From Serratia sarumanii (GTDB lineage Bacteria; Pseudomonadota; Gammaproteobacteria; Enterobacterales; Enterobacteriaceae): a stretch of DNA of 64,000 bases. Within the stretch, counting starts at the first letter, position 1; each line of letters opens with the position of its first letter. Under the pieces are notes generated by a model. It was not told the origin of the DNA and made no database searches. It was given only the letters and a program-made list of their open reading frames with translations. Location of the stretch: positions 2,542,001 to 2,606,000 of the forward strand of contig NZ_CP124750.1 in NCBI RefSeq assembly GCF_029962605.1, written 5' to 3'. Below are positions 21,174 to 48,431 of this stretch, in pieces. The position numbers were made by a program, and so were the translations under genes.

Positions 21174-22019
21174 ATGACTTCACTCTCCCCACGGGACATC
21201 GAGGCGCGCTACCGCTTCGCGCGTGAGATCGCCCGCGCCGCCGCCGATCTCGCCTTCAGCTTTTATCAACGGCGGCAAAGCCTGGCTGTCGACTTCAAAC
21301 AGGGGCTGCAGGACGTGGTCAGCGAGGCCGATCGCCGCGTCGAAGCGCTGATCCGCCGCATGATCAGCCGCCGTTTTCCCCAGGATGGGTTTCTCGGCGA
21401 GGAAAGCGGCAGCACCGGCGAGAATGCCGCCTGTATTTGGGTCGTCGATCCGATTGACGGCACCGCCTGCTTCCTGAACGGATTGCATACCTGGTGTATC
21501 GCGATAGGCGTGGTGATCGATGGCGAGCCGACGATAGGCGTGGTCTACGATCCCAACCACCGCGAAATGTTCCGCGCCTGTCGCGGCGGCGGCGCCTTTC
21601 TCAATGGGGAGCCGATCGCTGTGCATGCCGGGCGCAGCGTCGCGGATGGCGTGATGGGCGTCGGGATTTCCCCGCGCGCCTCGGCGGCGGAATTCAGCGG
21701 CTTTCTCTGTCGCCTGCTGCAGGCGGGAGGGATGTTTGTGCGCAGCGGCTCCGGCGCGTTGATGACCGCCCAGGTGGCCGCCGGACGGCTGCTGGGCTAT
21801 TACGAACCGCATATGAACGCCTGGGACAGCCTGCCTGGGTGGGTGCTGACGCGCGAAGCCGGCGGCGTGGCGAATGACTTTATGCACAACGACGGGCTGC
21901 GGCGCGGCAACCCGTTGCTGCTGGCCAACGCGGCGCTCTACCCGCAGTTGGCCGAGCTGATTCACATGCCGGGCTTGATCGGCTCGACGTGCCCTATCGC
22001 GCGCGTGATGGCCGGATAA
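21174..22019 (+). CDS. Inositol monophosphatase family phosphatase
   Basis: A 281-residue protein with the family's metal-binding signatures: GFLGEESG near residue 75, WVVDPIDGT near residue 90, and MNAWDSLPG near residue 220 (the WDxAxG motif with small changes). Such enzymes hydrolyse inositol phosphates, fructose-1,6-bisphosphate, 3'-phosphoadenosine 5'-phosphate or histidinol phosphate; the sequence alone does not say which. The start at 21174 is preferred over 21132 because it gives a family-like N-terminus. Its last 58 bases overlap the 3' end of the convergent CDF gene. Confidence 0.85.
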   Translation: MTSLSPRDIEARYRFAREIARAAADLAFSFYQRRQSLAVDFKQGLQDVVSEADRRVEALIRRMISRRFPQDGFLGEESGSTGENAACIWVVDPIDGTACFLNGLHTWCIAIGVVIDGEPTIGVVYDPNHREMFRACRGGGAFLNGEPIAVHAGRSVADGVMGVGISPRASAAEFSGFLCRLLQAGGMFVRSGSGALMTAQVAAGRLLGYYEPHMNAWDSLPGWVLTREAGGVANDFMHNDGLRRGNPLLLANAALYPQLAELIHMPGLIGSTCPIARVMAG

Positions 22020-23350
22020 AGCGCGCGCAGCCGGCGCTCGACCCGATCGACCGCATCGTGCGCGGCGGCGATGGTCACCGCCGGCGACACCCGGCAGTGG
22101 AAATTGACAATGATGCCGCCGTCGCTCTTGCGTGCGCGCACGTTGTGTACGTCTTGCACGCTCTCTCCCTGCTCCAGCGCCGACTGCAGGATCCGCCGAA
22201 TATCGGCCAGCTCCGTCGCATCGACATCCTCGCTGGTCAGCCAGTGCGGCGTCTGCGGCTCCAGGTGCGTCTCTATCTCGGTGTCCTCACCGATCGCCTG
22301 GCGCAGGATCCCTTCTATCTCCGTGGCGATGTCATGCGCCTGCGCCACGCTGGCGTTGGCCGGCACCACCAAATCCATGCCGATCGCCATGCGCGTCGGC
22401 AGCTGCTGCAACGTCACATTCTGTACCTGCGCGCCGTGGTTGGCGGCGATCGCCCGAATGCGCGTCGCCATGTCTTCATCGCTGCGGGTCTGCGGCACCG
22501 CGATGACGGTGAATTCCGCCCTGGCGTAGTGCTCCCGCAGTCGCTCGACGATCTCTCGCTTCAGCGCGTCGATGCGCTCCAGCGGCAAGGTGCGGCACAC
22601 CGCCACCGTGATTTCGACGAACAGCACCGCGCCGGCGTTGCGAATGCGCACGCTGTCGCAGGCCAGCACCGCCGGAAAACGCGCCAGCGTGGCGCGGATC
22701 GCCTCAGTAGCCCCGGCCGGCGCGGCATCCATCAGTGAATCGAAGGAGCGTTTACCCAGTTTGATCGCGGCGACAAAGATAAAGCCGGCGACGATCAGCG
22801 CGGCGATGGCGTCCGCGCGGCCAAAGCCCAGCAGCACAAACACCATCCCCAGCAGCACCACGCCGGACGAAAGCATGTCGGAGAAGAAATGCAGCGCATC
22901 CGCTTCCAGCGCCGCGCTGTCGGTCGCTTTGGCGACGCGGTTGAGCGCCCGCACGCGGAAGAAATCGACGCAGATGGAAATCAACAGCACCGCGATCACC
23001 ACCGGCGCGGCGACGATCTCATGCGGCTGCCCGAGCAGGCTGCTGCCGGCCTCATAGACAATCCAACCGGCGGCGCCCAGCAACAGCAGCACCTCAAACA
23101 GCGCCGCCAGGTTTTCCACCTTGCCGTGGCCGAAGTGGTGATCGTCATCGGCGGGCTTATCGCTGATGCGCACCGCCAGCCAGGTGATGCTGGTGGCGAT
23201 AAAATCGGTGAAAGAGTGGATCCCTTCGGATATCAGGCCAATACTGCCGGTAAAAATGCCGGCGACAAATTTGCCCGTGGCCAGTAACCCGCTGGCGATC
23301 ATCGAGTTTCTGGCCACGGCCTGTTTTTCATTCTGCATTATGCTGCTCAC
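21962..23350 (-). CDS. Cation diffusion facilitator (CDF) metal exporter
   Basis: A 462-residue protein with six hydrophobic helices in the first 210 residues. Metal-binding residues are seen in SEGIHSFTDFIA and DDDHHFGHGKVENLAALFE, and again in ALEADALHFFSDMLSS. The long cytoplasmic tail seems to contain two successive ferredoxin-like dimerisation regions, so the protein is longer than the usual 300-residue CDF. It should use the proton gradient to expel Zn, Co, Fe or Mn. The start is a GTG at 23350; an in-frame ATG lies at 23338. It shares orientation with the magnesium cluster but there is no direct evidence for co-transcription. Confidence 0.88.
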   Translation of the reverse strand: MSSIMQNEKQAVARNSMIASGLLATGKFVAGIFTGSIGLISEGIHSFTDFIATSITWLAVRISDKPADDDHHFGHGKVENLAALFEVLLLLGAAGWIVYEAGSSLLGQPHEIVAAPVVIAVLLISICVDFFRVRALNRVAKATDSAALEADALHFFSDMLSSGVVLLGMVFVLLGFGRADAIAALIVAGFIFVAAIKLGKRSFDSLMDAAPAGATEAIRATLARFPAVLACDSVRIRNAGAVLFVEITVAVCRTLPLERIDALKREIVERLREHYARAEFTVIAVPQTRSDEDMATRIRAIAANHGAQVQNVTLQQLPTRMAIGMDLVVPANASVAQAHDIATEIEGILRQAIGEDTEIETHLEPQTPHWLTSEDVDATELADIRRILQSALEQGESVQDVHNVRARKSDGGIIVNFHCRVSPAVTIAAAHDAVDRVERRLRALYPAITRAIGHVEPIKPGM

Positions 23351-23364
23351 ATTCGGACGGTGAT

Positions 23365-23544
23365 TTATTTTTTTATTTTAGAGGATAATTGCCAGACAAC
23401 GGCGATCAGCAGCATACTGCCAGAGAATGTCAGCATGAGGCTAGTAAGAAAATTGGATTTTCCGGTGGAATAAAAATAAATCTCATTAACGCCCACCGAG
23501 ATCATTAAAATGGCGTAGAGCAATCCCAGAATAAGAATCGTCAT
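23365..23544 (-). CDS. Small membrane protein, unknown
   Basis: A 59-residue product with two hydrophobic helices (MTILILGLLYAILMISVGV and SLMLTFSGSMLLIAVVWQL) and a basic end, SSKIKK. The ATG at 23544 has GGGAG nine bases upstream; a longer frame to 23631 lacks a site. The composition is much more AT-rich than the flanks. It lies between the MgtS-like gene and the CDF gene, all on the minus strand. The topology and position suggest an accessory to membrane metal transport, but I recognise no family. Confidence 0.6.
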   Translation of the reverse strand: MTILILGLLYAILMISVGVNEIYFYSTGKSNFLTSLMLTFSGSMLLIAVVWQLSSKIKK

Positions 23545-23653
23545 TATTATCAACTCCCGTATCAGGCCGCGCGTTCCGCGCGCCGCTAAAAATCCTCCCC
23601 ATAATAAATAGCGGTTACGGGGAGGATGCATCTAGGCGGATCTTTTGCGTTCA

Positions 23654-23746
23654 TCAATCATCCCATTTGGTGCTCATATAGGCCGCCAACAGGCCCAGTG
23701 AGCTGATCATTGCCAGGAATCCCATAAAAATAGTCATGTTTCCCAT
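23654..23746 (-). CDS. mgtS: MgtS-like membrane microprotein
   Basis: A 30-codon gene with GAGG ten bases upstream of its ATG and a double TGA stop. The product starts MGNMTIFMGFLAMIS and ends LLAAYMSTKWDD. E. coli MgtS (formerly YneM, 31 residues) has, as I recall it, the same layout: GNMNVFM near the start and LAAYFSHKWDD at the end. MgtS is an inner-membrane microprotein that protects the Mg importer MgtA from degradation and binds the phosphate importer PitA. Here it sits 133 bp downstream of mgtE on the same strand, which strengthens the link to magnesium and suggests that MgtE could be its partner. Confidence 0.8.
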   Translation of the reverse strand: MGNMTIFMGFLAMISSLGLLAAYMSTKWDD

Positions 23747-23878
23747 TGTTTTTTCCTCAGGTTAAATGTTATCGATAAAAGCCCCTCGCGTTAAATATCG
23801 GGGTTGGTCGGTATCCATATTTTTTAACGCCCTCCTCTTTTTTTGTCACACTCCCGCCCTTTTTAGAGCGGGAACCGT

Positions 23879-24901
23879 TTAAATCCCCAAAACGTACTGG
23901 GCAATTTTGAAATAAATAATCAGGCCGGTGCCATCGATAAAGGTGGCGATAAACGGCGCCGATACCACCGCCGGATCGATGCCGAGCCGTTTCAACAGCA
24001 TCGGAATGATCGACGAGACAATCGCGCTCCACACGGTGATCGCCACCAGCGACAGGCTGACCACCAGCGTCACCTCCATGCCGACGCCCATGATCCAGGC
24101 GCGCACCCAGGCCGCCAGGCCAATGGTGACGGCGATCAGCAGCGAGGTCGTGACCTCTTTGCGGATCACCGCGCCCAGGTTACGCAGGCTGACCTCGCCC
24201 AGCGCCATGGCGCGCACCAGCGTCGAGGTGATCTGGGTGCCGCTGTTGCCGCCGGTGCCGATCAGCAGCGGGATAAAGAACGCCAGCGCGATCGCCGCTT
24301 CGAGTTGCTCTTCAAACGCCTTGAGCACGTTGCCGGTGTAAGCCTCGGCAACGAACAGCATCAGCAGCCACACCGAGCGTTTGCGCCACAGCGCCCACGG
24401 GCTGGTCTCCAGATAAGGCTTGTCCAGCGGCAGGCTCGCGCCCTGGCGCTGCGCGTCTTCGGTGTTTTCAGCCTCGACCAACCGGGCGATCTCTCGCTCC
24501 CCCAGCACGCCGACCAGCGTGTTGTTCGCCACGACCGGCACCACGTCCAGGCCGCCCTTGCCGAGCAGATGCGCCACGTCGTTGCGATCGCCGTCAGGTG
24601 AAACCTGAAAATAGCTGTGATCCATCATCACGCCGACCGCTTTATCCTGCTCGTCGCACTGCAGCAGTTTTTTCACCGACAGCGTGCCGCGCAGATGATA
24701 ATCGTCCGCGGTAATAAATACCCGGGTGGGAATTTCGTCCGTTTTAAGCTGTGAAAGTAAATATTTCCGGGCATGATTGACCGTCATCGTCGCGGGAACG
24801 GTAATAAAATCGGCGTTCATATAGCCGGCGACCGATGTCTCGTCGAGAGTTTCAGTCGCGCTCAGCGCCGGAGAAGAATAATGTTGATGTGACTTTATCA
24901 T
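23879..24901 (-). CDS. mgtE: Magnesium transporter, MgtE family, short form
   Basis: A 340-residue MgtE. Residues 30-165 carry two CBS domains (YMNADFITVPATMTVNHA; DVVPVVANNTLVGVL). Residues 185-340 form five membrane helices with the signature LLIGTGGNSGTQITSTLVRA and the late FIDGTGLIIYF. The superhelical N domain of about 130 residues present in Thermus MgtE is missing, so magnesium gating would rely on the CBS part. The start at 24901 is preceded by AGGGA; the frame is open to 24961. An M-box riboswitch and a hairpin covering the ribosome site precede it, so it should be repressed when magnesium is ample. Confidence 0.9.
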   Translation of the reverse strand: MIKSHQHYSSPALSATETLDETSVAGYMNADFITVPATMTVNHARKYLLSQLKTDEIPTRVFITADDYHLRGTLSVKKLLQCDEQDKAVGVMMDHSYFQVSPDGDRNDVAHLLGKGGLDVVPVVANNTLVGVLGEREIARLVEAENTEDAQRQGASLPLDKPYLETSPWALWRKRSVWLLMLFVAEAYTGNVLKAFEEQLEAAIALAFFIPLLIGTGGNSGTQITSTLVRAMALGEVSLRNLGAVIRKEVTTSLLIAVTIGLAAWVRAWIMGVGMEVTLVVSLSLVAITVWSAIVSSIIPMLLKRLGIDPAVVSAPFIATFIDGTGLIIYFKIAQYVLGI

Positions 24902-24910
24902 TTTGTCAGT

Positions 24911-24951
24911 CCCTATTTCTGTTTTGAACTTCAACAGCGAATCGCATAGGG
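24911..24951 (-). promoter_or_regulatory. Hairpin hiding the mgtE ribosome binding site
   Basis: On the mRNA, CCCTAT (24946-24951) pairs with ATAGGG (24911-24916), and an inner stem CTGTT/AACAG pairs within the loop. The 3' arm contains the AGGGA ribosome site of mgtE at 24910-24914. No U-run follows, so this looks like a translational expression platform placed directly after the M-box. Confidence 0.55.
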
Positions 24952-24982
24952 GCGTAACCACAGAGGGGGAGTGCAGACTGCC

Positions 24983-25148
24983 TATCTCCGCGTCCAGGTT
25001 TTAGCACTATACAACGTATCCGAATTGTTGCTCGGAAGTTACTTTGGGCTGAACCTTAATCCGATAAAGCCTGTCTTAACCTTGGGCATCTCTCGATGTC
25101 GTCAGATCAGTAACCTGTGTTTGTATAGGAGCCTCGCCAAACGAGATA
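24983..25148 (-). promoter_or_regulatory. M-box (ykoK) magnesium riboswitch upstream of mgtE
   Basis: The minus-strand RNA carries the conserved M-box blocks in order: GCGAGGCTCCTATACAAACA (25120-25139), GACATCGAGAGATGCC (25086-25101), and TATAGTGCTAAAAC near the 3' end (24998-25011). The ends close into a P1 helix, TATCTC/GAGATA, at 25143-25148 and 24983-24988. The M-box folds around several Mg ions and turns off Mg transporter genes. It sits just before an mgtE gene, as in Bacillus. The family consensus was recalled from memory, not searched. Confidence 0.88.
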
Positions 25149-25169
25149 CTGCATATAAACTACCGGCGC

Positions 25170-25198: not shown

Positions 25199-25260
25199 GA
25201 AAAGATTGTCCGTCGTTTATGGAGTATTTAGGATAATTTAATTAAACGCGAATCTATAAA

Positions 25261-46820: not shown

Positions 46821-48431
46821 ATGAGCGATAACAGCGCCGTTCAACCGGACATGCCGGCCGCCTCCAGCCTGCCCAAACTGCATCAAAAGAACAGTCGACT
46901 CACTGTTCTTTTTTTTATGTTCTTATTAATTCTGGGGATCGCGTTCGCCGGGGTGAACTTATTTAACGACGTCAGCGACGCCGGCGCCGTCTATACCAGT
47001 TACGTTCCGTTTTTATTATTGGGGCTGGCGCTATTGATTGCGCTGGGCTTTGAATTCGTCAACGGCTTCCACGATACCGCCAATGCGGTCGCAACGGTGA
47101 TTTACACCCACTCGCTTTCGCCGATGGTCGCCGTGGTGTGGTCCGGTTTCTTCAACTTTCTCGGCGTGTTGCTCTCCAGCGGCGTGGTGGCCTTCGGCAT
47201 CATTTCGCTGCTGCCGGTCGAGCTGATCCTGCAGGCCGGCACCGGCAACGGTTTCGCCATGGTGTACGCCCTGCTGTTCTCCGCCATCATCTGGAACCTC
47301 GGCACCTGGTGGCTCGGGCTGCCCGCCTCGTCGTCGCATACGCTGATCGGCTCGATTATCGGCGTCGGCGTAGCCAACGCCCTGATCCACGGCCGCACCG
47401 GCACCAGCGGCGTGGACTGGGGCCAGGCGATCAAGGTGGGCTACGCGCTGCTGCTGTCGCCGGTGATCGGCTTCGTGTTCGCCGGCCTGCTGCTGCTGGC
47501 GCTGAAGCTGTTCGTCAAGAACCGCCAGCTGTACAGCGCCCCTAAGGGCAATACCCCGCCGCCGCTGTGGATCCGCGGGCTGCTGATCCTCACCTGCACC
47601 GGCGTTTCCTTCGCCCACGGCTCCAACGACGGCCAGAAAGGCATGGGCCTTATCATGCTGATCCTGGTGGGCACCATGCCGATCGCCTACGCCCTGAACC
47701 GTTCGATGCCACCGGAGCAGATTCCCCGGGTGGCGGCGCTGGCGGAGGTGACCCAAAACCAGCTGCTGCGCCAGTTCCCGGCCGGCGGCCAAACGCCGCC
47801 GCGCGAGGTGCTGACCGGCTATGTGCGCACCAGCGAGCTGACGCCGGAGGTGGTGCCGGCGTTGGCGCAGCTGGCCGGCGCGATCGGCGATCAAATCCGT
47901 CAGTACGGCTCGGTCGACAAGATCCCGGCGCAGGCGGTGTCGAACACCCGCAACGACATGTATCTGGCGTCCGAGACCATCAAGCACCTGAAGGCAGAGC
48001 ATCAGCTGCAGATCAATCCCGACGCGCAGCGCAACCTCGACGCGCTGAAGGGCGAACTCGACAACGCCACCCGCTTCATTCCCTTCTGGGTGAAGGTGGT
48101 GGTGGCGATTGCGCTGGGGCTCGGCACCATGGTCGGCTGGCGCCGCATCGTGGTGACGGTGGGCGAAAAGATCGGTAAATCGCACCTGACCTACGCCCAG
48201 GGCGCCAGCGCCGAACTGGTGGCAATGACCACCATCGGCGCGGCCGACGCCTTCGGCTTGCCGGTTTCGACCACGCACGTCCTGTCGTCCGGCATCGCCG
48301 GCACCATGGCCGCCAACCGCTCCGGGCTGCAGATGGCCACCCTGCGCAATCTGCTGATGGCCTGGGTGCTAACCCTGCCGGCCTCGGTGCTGCTGTCGGC
48401 GGTGCTGTACTGGATCTTCAACCATTTCTAA
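46821..48431 (+). CDS. PiT family inorganic phosphate transporter
   Basis: A 536-residue permease with the duplicated PiT signatures EFVNGFHDTANAVATVIYTH in the first half and SFAHGSNDGQKGMGLI, then GLPVSTTHVLSSGI, in the second. There are about ten to twelve helices and a cytoplasmic loop of about 120 residues in the middle. It imports metal-phosphate complexes with protons. The PPK2 gene follows after 26 bp, so uptake and polyphosphate metabolism are coupled in one operon. The ribosome site is AGGAAGG. Confidence 0.92.
   Translation: MSDNSAVQPDMPAASSLPKLHQKNSRLTVLFFMFLLILGIAFAGVNLFNDVSDAGAVYTSYVPFLLLGLALLIALGFEFVNGFHDTANAVATVIYTHSLSPMVAVVWSGFFNFLGVLLSSGVVAFGIISLLPVELILQAGTGNGFAMVYALLFSAIIWNLGTWWLGLPASSSHTLIGSIIGVGVANALIHGRTGTSGVDWGQAIKVGYALLLSPVIGFVFAGLLLLALKLFVKNRQLYSAPKGNTPPPLWIRGLLILTCTGVSFAHGSNDGQKGMGLIMLILVGTMPIAYALNRSMPPEQIPRVAALAEVTQNQLLRQFPAGGQTPPREVLTGYVRTSELTPEVVPALAQLAGAIGDQIRQYGSVDKIPAQAVSNTRNDMYLASETIKHLKAEHQLQINPDAQRNLDALKGELDNATRFIPFWVKVVVAIALGLGTMVGWRRIVVTVGEKIGKSHLTYAQGASAELVAMTTIGAADAFGLPVSTTHVLSSGIAGTMAANRSGLQMATLRNLLMAWVLTLPASVLLSAVLYWIFNHF

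Follow-up and report, generated by a model that had tools for sequence, protein, structure and literature searches.

The window analysed here, the whole 64,000-nucleotide stretch of Serratia sarumanii contig NZ_CP124750.1, carries on its minus strand, in 5' to 3' order, an M-box, mgtE, the microprotein gene mgtS, a 59-codon ORF (hereafter orf59) and the gene for a CDF-family transporter (Table 1). The initial annotation of this DNA, made from the sequence alone, had described the 30-aa product as MgtS-like and its gene as lying directly downstream of an M-box-controlled mgtE; the arrangement is as stated, with mgtE ending 132 nt upstream of mgtS on the same strand, orf59 following mgtS after 109 nt, and the CDF gene beginning 14 nt past orf59. 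The M-box matches its Rfam model over the full length (model positions 1–169 of 169) with a score of 143.9 bits against a cut-off of 44. The mgtE product matches TIGR00400 at profile positions 113–449 of 450 and scores 227.5 bits, just below the cut-off of 232.75; the ATG at 24901 may be its real start, because some relatives align only from residue 10, 14 or 21. The same genome encodes a 477-aa ORF (L139, 2518–3951) that is 25% identical to the short MgtE. Other short mgtE copies (L135, L136, L137 and L138; 56–65% identical) lie behind M-boxes with no mgtS match nearby, L135 having solely a weak, unlikely match near its short mgtE.

Table 1. Features of the mgtS locus, in window coordinates
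Feature	Positions	Strand	Basis
PhoP-box-like direct repeat CGTTTA-N5-TATTTA	25214..25230	(+)	10 of 12 consensus positions
M-box (ykoK leader) magnesium riboswitch aptamer	24979..25152	(-)	Rfam RF00380
mgtE, short form without N domain, 360 aa from GTG	23879..24961	(-)	Pfam PF01769, two CBS stretches
18-codon leader ORF, AGGAGG upstream	23762..23818	(-)	ATG, 18 codons and stop in 26/26 genus loci
Leader element GAGG/AGGGG-N3-9-TATCG	23773..23786	(-)	motif count across loci
mgtS, 30-aa membrane microprotein, one hydrophobic segment	23654..23746	(-)	family models, pN/pS, hydropathy
mgtT-like ORF, 22 aa, start overlapping the mgtS stop (TGATG)	23586..23654	(-)	arrangement as in E. coli mgtST
GC-rich hairpin between mgtS and orf59, 13-pair stem	23591..23627	(-)	folding
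orf59, conserved 59-aa membrane protein, two hydrophobic stretches	23365..23544	(-)	26/26 genus loci
CDF-family cation transporter (FieF-like)	21962..23350	(-)	PF01545, PF16916, TIGR01297

The mgtS product, translated from an ATG start, is MGNMTIFMGFLAMISSLGLLAAYMSTKWDD (30 aa). Model searches place it above the curated cut-offs of both MgtS families, with 64 bits against 35 for NCBIfam NF033842 and 38 bits against 27 for Pfam PF22865, and it is 57% identical to E. coli MgtS (reference sequence taken from NZ_CP032204), in agreement with the initial description as an MgtS-like microprotein. This alignment contains no internal gaps and bears out the E. coli-like layout and the LAAY-x-S-x-KWDD ending noted there. 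Across 12 aligned rows, the residues G-N-M, F, L, G, A-A-Y, S and W-D-D are invariant, and alignment and hydropathy reveal the traits of the family, namely, a length of about 31 aa (here 30), one hydrophobic segment and a conserved C-terminal end. The gene is present in one copy in the window's own genome and in 26 of the 30 genomes of the genus, the four genomes with no match being 1.5–3.6 Mb in size. The initial annotation had named a lack of conservation of this frame in related genomes as grounds for refutation, and the frame proved to be conserved: comparison of 21 distinct sequences gives a pN/pS of 0.17 for the mgtS frame and of 1.00 and 5.63 for the shifted frames, a pattern indicative of purifying selection at the protein level. 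An ORF of just 30 codons could resemble MgtS by chance or as a non-coding artefact; nevertheless, this explanation, to which we attach a negligible probability, is refuted by the difference between the frames and runs counter to the scores with both models, the presence in 26 of 30 genus genomes and the alignment to E. coli MgtS. Judged by these comparisons, the ORF encodes a true MgtS homologue, that is, a gene of an already known kind.

The neighbourhood is nearly constant within the genus: among the 26 genus mgtS loci, the M-box and orf59 are each present in all 26, the CDF gene in 25 and mgtE, with a match along most of the gene, likewise in 25. In the family, a search with an MgtS profile at E 0.001 detected the protein in 97 of 392 genomes, representing 35 of the 154 genera (an initial Pfam-model search of the order, with 12 of 394 genomes at E 0.01 and 8 over the cut-off, was less sensitive and was not used to estimate the spread). 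Among 32 wider-family loci (L103–L134, mostly one per genus) that were read at about 8 kb (one at 6 kb), 16 have E. coli-type neighbours (ydeE, rhodanese, ftrA, dgcZ or ydeI), 7 have the Serratia-type cluster and 9 have neither. These 7, the 26 genus loci, G296 and S. rubidaea G561 (equated with S. rubidaea L073, mgtS being at the identical contig position) make up a set of 35 clustered loci, chosen for carrying at least one of mgtE, orf59, the CDF gene and the M-box. In this set, orf59 is found at 34 loci, the M-box at 32, the CDF gene at 30 and mgtE at 27. By these counts, orf59 is a steadier companion of mgtS than mgtE (34 of 35 loci in a set chosen partly by orf59), and the count leans towards orf59 because loci were classed as clustered by mgtE, orf59, the CDF gene or the M-box.

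Past the mgtS stop, the overlapping ATG of the mgtT-like ORF is present in all 26 genus loci, but the 3' part and the length of this ORF vary and its first 11 codons show a pN/pS of 0.88 (11 distinct sequences); a conserved protein is thus unsupported past the start. A hairpin similar to the one in the window was found in 21 of the 22 folded loci (it is absent in L124), and 7 of 200 shuffles fold as well as the window hairpin. As a strict terminator, this hairpin was rejected, given that TTTTT stands right behind the stem in 3 of the 22 loci and that a consensus scan did not report it; it may restrict read-through into orf59. The orf59 product matches no Pfam or NCBIfam family over the cut-off, and its pN/pS of 0.14 over the last 54 codons, anchored at the stop (24 distinct sequences), indicates purifying selection. 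A scan of named genomes recovered orf59 at 18 loci, all in Serratia (for example, S. marcescens, S. ureilytica, S. plymuthica, S. proteamaculans, S. silvae and S. rubidaea), and a protein search produced 51 matches; among those listed, the organisms are Serratia or Chania and the labels are hypothetical, uncharacterised or membrane protein alone. The CDF transporter scores under the FieF equivalog cut-off.

On the other side of mgtS, the stop of the leader ORF sits 15 nt before the mgtS start. This ORF is open in all 21 distinct sequences, with stops in 21 and 20 of them in the other two frames, and is also open in 121 of 5000 column permutations. It was rejected as a conserved peptide because its pN/pS of 0.73 is no better than that of one of the shifted frames (1.44 and 0.52). 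As the peptide shows no clear selection, the GAGG..TATCG element is the safer claim: it is present at all 26 genus loci, at 6 of the 9 other clustered loci and at 11 of the 47 distinct other mgtS loci, against 0.03, 0.01 and 0.1 expected from mononucleotide shuffles for the three sets, the loci being related (L117, with no mgtS by pattern, is outside the 47 distinct loci, and L067 is outside the motif counts). The element also occurs about 40 nt upstream of mgtS beyond Serratia, for example, in L086, L128 and L133. By eye, the 115 nt upstream of mgtS in the genus loci contain a conserved AGGAGG, ATG and GAGG..TATCG and no conserved -10-like element.

In E. coli, expression of MgtS at low Mg2+ depends on PhoPQ. 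The PhoP-box-like site of the Serratia locus lies 62–78 nt upstream of the M-box, reversed relative to the transcript, and was scored against what we take to be the PhoP-box consensus. At offset -78, the mean score is 9.38 of 12, compared with 5.03 (sd 0.87) across all offsets in 21 related upstream regions; free-position scores are not significant in most single sequences, and it is the fixed-offset mean alone, from related sequences, that stands out. The window's own site is equalled by 9 of 100 shuffles, whereas those of L104 and L073 score a perfect 12 of 12 and that of L124 is weak at the fixed offset (7 of 12; 11 of 12 at -72). S. rubidaea L073 thus has a perfect site, yet neither mgtE nor an M-box at the locus. 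It is one of three clustered loci that lack the M-box (L073, L109 and L119), and its relative L104 carries one, the promoter and mgtS leader being otherwise alike; on comparison of the two sequences, this is a natural loss or gain of the M-box. Folds of short stretches 3' of the M-box in L104 and L009 are no better than shuffles. A simple scan of the minus strand between 21900 and 25500, including the region upstream of the M-box, returned no sigma-70-like promoter, so nothing in it points to a promoter of mgtS's own; between mgtE and mgtS, this silence is weak evidence because the scan equally fails to detect the promoter that should precede the M-box. The shared Mg control of mgtS and mgtE is the well-supported half of the idea put forward in the initial annotation, the support being anatomical: every one of the 26 genus loci has the M-box upstream, and in 5 genomes, one of them (G396) of the genus, it precedes mgtS with no intact mgtE in between.

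These 5 genomes, from 4 genera (L104, L124, L132, L009/L141 and L024/L140), bear directly on the other half, the role of MgtE, and in three of them (G396, G296 and G725) intact mgtS stands beside scraps of mgtE. In G396 (L024/L140), which belongs to the genus, a 5' piece of mgtE (detected by tblastn) comes after the M-box, and behind it lie a 3' piece (recognised by eye) and then mgtS and orf59, both intact; this locus lacks the CDF gene. In G296 (L009/L141), of another genus, short 5' pieces of mgtE precede intact mgtS, orf59 and the CDF gene. G725 (L132), of the same genus as G296, has a nearly identical locus sequence in which tblastn at E 1e-4 gives no mgtE match, and G664, also of that genus, retains mgtE. 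Judging from these pieces, mgtE was lost at least twice (in G396 and in G296/G725). The other absences may reflect either loss or a gene that was never acquired: in G433 (L104), the M-box lies about 195 nt upstream of mgtS with no mgtE; in G518 (L124), it lies about 400 nt upstream with neither mgtE nor orf59; and S. rubidaea L073, G443 (L109) and G493 (L119) keep mgtS and orf59 with neither mgtE nor M-box at the locus. An intact short-type MgtE was not found genome-wide in G396, G433, G443, G493 and G561 (91% complete), all of which retain mgtS and orf59; all five encode a long, approximately 25% identical MgtE-like protein, so the absence pertains to the short type and not to MgtE of any kind. 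Another short MgtE (60–63% identity) is encoded elsewhere in the genomes of G296, G725 and G518, and the short mgtE of G080 and G208 is far away from mgtS.

The reading we prefer, with a probability of roughly 0.6, is that mgtS belongs to a Serratia-type Mg operon in which MgtS modulates Mg transporters together with the orf59 product, MgtE being a co-regulated neighbour and not an obligatory partner. Homology, selection, synteny and the mgtE losses are features of the compared sequences; from these we infer co-transcription, a response to Mg and the partners. The operon would consist of the PhoP-box-like site, a promoter, the M-box, mgtE (where present), mgtS, orf59 and, in most cases, the CDF gene. 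At low Mg2+, the M-box would open and transcription would proceed through mgtE into mgtS and orf59, as the order, strand and conservation of these elements suggest. MgtS, spanning the membrane once, would modulate transporters that handle Mg, its likeliest targets being those of the E. coli protein, a P-type MgtA that would be stabilised and a PitA-type phosphate/Mg carrier that would be restrained, and the orf59 product would be a second small membrane component. MgtE is assigned the part of a neighbour because it was lost at least twice while the M-box, mgtS and orf59 stayed.

According to the available part of one review, E. coli MgtS stabilises MgtA and restrains PitA (PMC10710835), and the stabilisation of MgtA also appears in the accessible text of PMC13209247. 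Each of the 26 genus genomes with mgtS encodes a P-type ATPase of the MgtA/MgtB family (28 of the 30 genomes overall, one gene being broken), and PHO4/PitA-family genes are present in all 30, so the E. coli partners are available. PitA-type genes are uninformative on partnership, being present in every genus genome with or without mgtS. In the window, a PHO4/PitA-family match lies at 47061–48398 (+), about 23 kb from mgtS, and the genome has another PHO4 match elsewhere. Co-occurrence with MgtA was likewise discarded as proof: MgtA is present in 30 of 35 MgtS-positive representatives of genera and in 18 of 45 MgtS-negative genomes, but in 16 of the 20 MgtS-negative genomes of at least 4 Mb, so that, at normal genome size, the comparison is uninformative. 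G441, an MgtS-positive genome with no MgtA match, is 49% complete, and G518, which has an M-box and mgtS, gives no MgtA match at E 1e-200.

If MgtS acted on the short MgtE itself, binding, stabilising or gating it in the way that MgtU stands beside MgtB, the adjacency of the two genes would be explained. Indeed, L130, L131 and 25 of the 26 genus loci have mgtE directly upstream of mgtS, and, according to the available part of PMC10710835, a small protein can be produced next to its target, as is MgtU with MgtB. The MgtE partnership suggested in the initial annotation is nonetheless weakened by the natural losses, and with it any obligatory partnership: mgtS is intact in G396, G296 and G725, where the mgtE of the locus is scrap; five genomes with mgtS and orf59 have no intact short MgtE, and in four of them (G433, G443, G493 and G561) there is no short MgtE match genome-wide; and in G080 and G208 the short mgtE is distant from mgtS. 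MgtS could still target the long MgtE-like protein or, in G296, G725 and G518, the distant short paralogue; all told, we regard a direct MgtE partnership as improbable. A better case, although still one that we would put well below even odds, can be made for MgtS and the orf59 product as a single unit around which transporters come and go, considering that orf59 stands next to mgtS in 34 of 35 clustered loci, more often than the M-box, the CDF gene or mgtE, and that its sequence is strongly constrained. Such a unit is at odds with L124, which has mgtS and the CDF gene but no orf59, and with the 16 loci with E. coli-type neighbours, where orf59 gives no match at E 1e-4.

It is also conceivable, albeit unlikely, that a PhoP-type promoter of its own, within the cluster, drives mgtS, which would then be a mere passenger of the mgtE region. 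In 32 of the 47 distinct non-clustered mgtS loci, the best PhoP-box-like site is on the sense strand at -94 to -113 and scores 8–11 of 12, and S. rubidaea L073 keeps mgtS and a perfect box with neither M-box nor mgtE. However, scores of 8–9 are common in shuffles, the E. coli record (L037) reaches just 8, at -161, the well-placed box of the genus precedes the M-box and not mgtS, and the 115 nt before mgtS show, by eye, no conserved -10-like element. Returning to the Mg operon that we favour, a more specific version, which we hold tentatively and at somewhat less than even odds, is that several lineages retain the mgtS–orf59 microprotein pair, and not a transporter, as the output of the riboswitch after the loss of mgtE, PhoP responding to external and the M-box to internal Mg as two layers of control and the orf59 product being a second, hitherto undescribed component of the MgtS system. 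If the operon is real, a well-studied regulatory microprotein falls under the direct control of an Mg-sensing RNA, and orf59, a conserved small protein with no name, gains a magnesium context. The natural mgtE deletions separate regulation from partnership, and the question of the partner can therefore be tested in lineages that lack the suspected one.

Among the titles and abstract openings listed by a literature search that covered few subscription papers, none places mgtS behind an M-box or beside mgtE, and the passages on MgtS in the accessible parts of PMC12350097, PMC10710835, PMC13209247, PMC8844918, PMC11701544 and PMC10384996 mention no such setting. We found no description of this setting, with mgtS behind an M-box, constantly accompanied by the 59-aa membrane ORF, and with mgtE dropping out. 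The Serratia locus and the E. coli MgtS (YneM)/mgtST system share the protein family, the length, the single hydrophobic segment and the LAAY-x-S-x-KWDD end, and in both the next ORF starts on the mgtS stop codon. The settings differ: in the one E. coli record read, mgtS lies between ftrA and mgtT/dgcZ, whereas in Serratia it lies behind the M-box and mgtE and before orf59. The initial annotation had stated that in E. coli no transporter gene adjoins mgtS; this is true of the record read, where the direct neighbours are ftrA, mgtT and dgcZ; the MFS efflux gene ydeE is three genes upstream, and no Mg transporter gene was found in the 6.3-kb stretch read there. At four other enteric loci (L002–L005), mgtS ends against an opposed STnc560/mgrR gene, unlike in Serratia; STnc560 (mgrR) gave no match at the Rfam cut-off at the Serratia-type loci searched, and the M-box is the only RNA family over that cut-off at the genus loci. 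Upstream of E. coli mgtST, PIRT-Seq has revealed a short ORF, CDS58 (PMC12350097, in the part available). This is presumably the 17-codon ORF in L037, the counterpart position of which holds the 18-codon ORF in Serratia, with no similarity between the two by eye. At the other E. coli-type loci, among them the near-identical L002, the 17-codon ORF was not listed, although some of these loci have other short ORFs there.

Two Salmonella microproteins, MgtU and MgtR, are induced by low Mg and, we assume, belong to sequence families different from that of MgtS. They are likewise small membrane proteins produced with an Mg transporter, MgtU being encoded beside mgtB and MgtR beside mgtCB (PMC10710835, available part). 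Unlike in these cases, the neighbouring transporter in Serratia is of the MgtE family and is dispensable for retention of the microprotein. A regulatory parallel comes from Mycobacterium tuberculosis, where, according to the accessible text of PMC12810186, an M-box controls the small ORF Rv1805A. In both systems a small ORF would be an output of the M-box, the immediate one in M. tuberculosis; Rv1805A, however, sits in a pe-ppe context and its peptide is presumably unrelated, whereas the Serratia small protein is one for which a role in Mg handling has been reported in E. coli.
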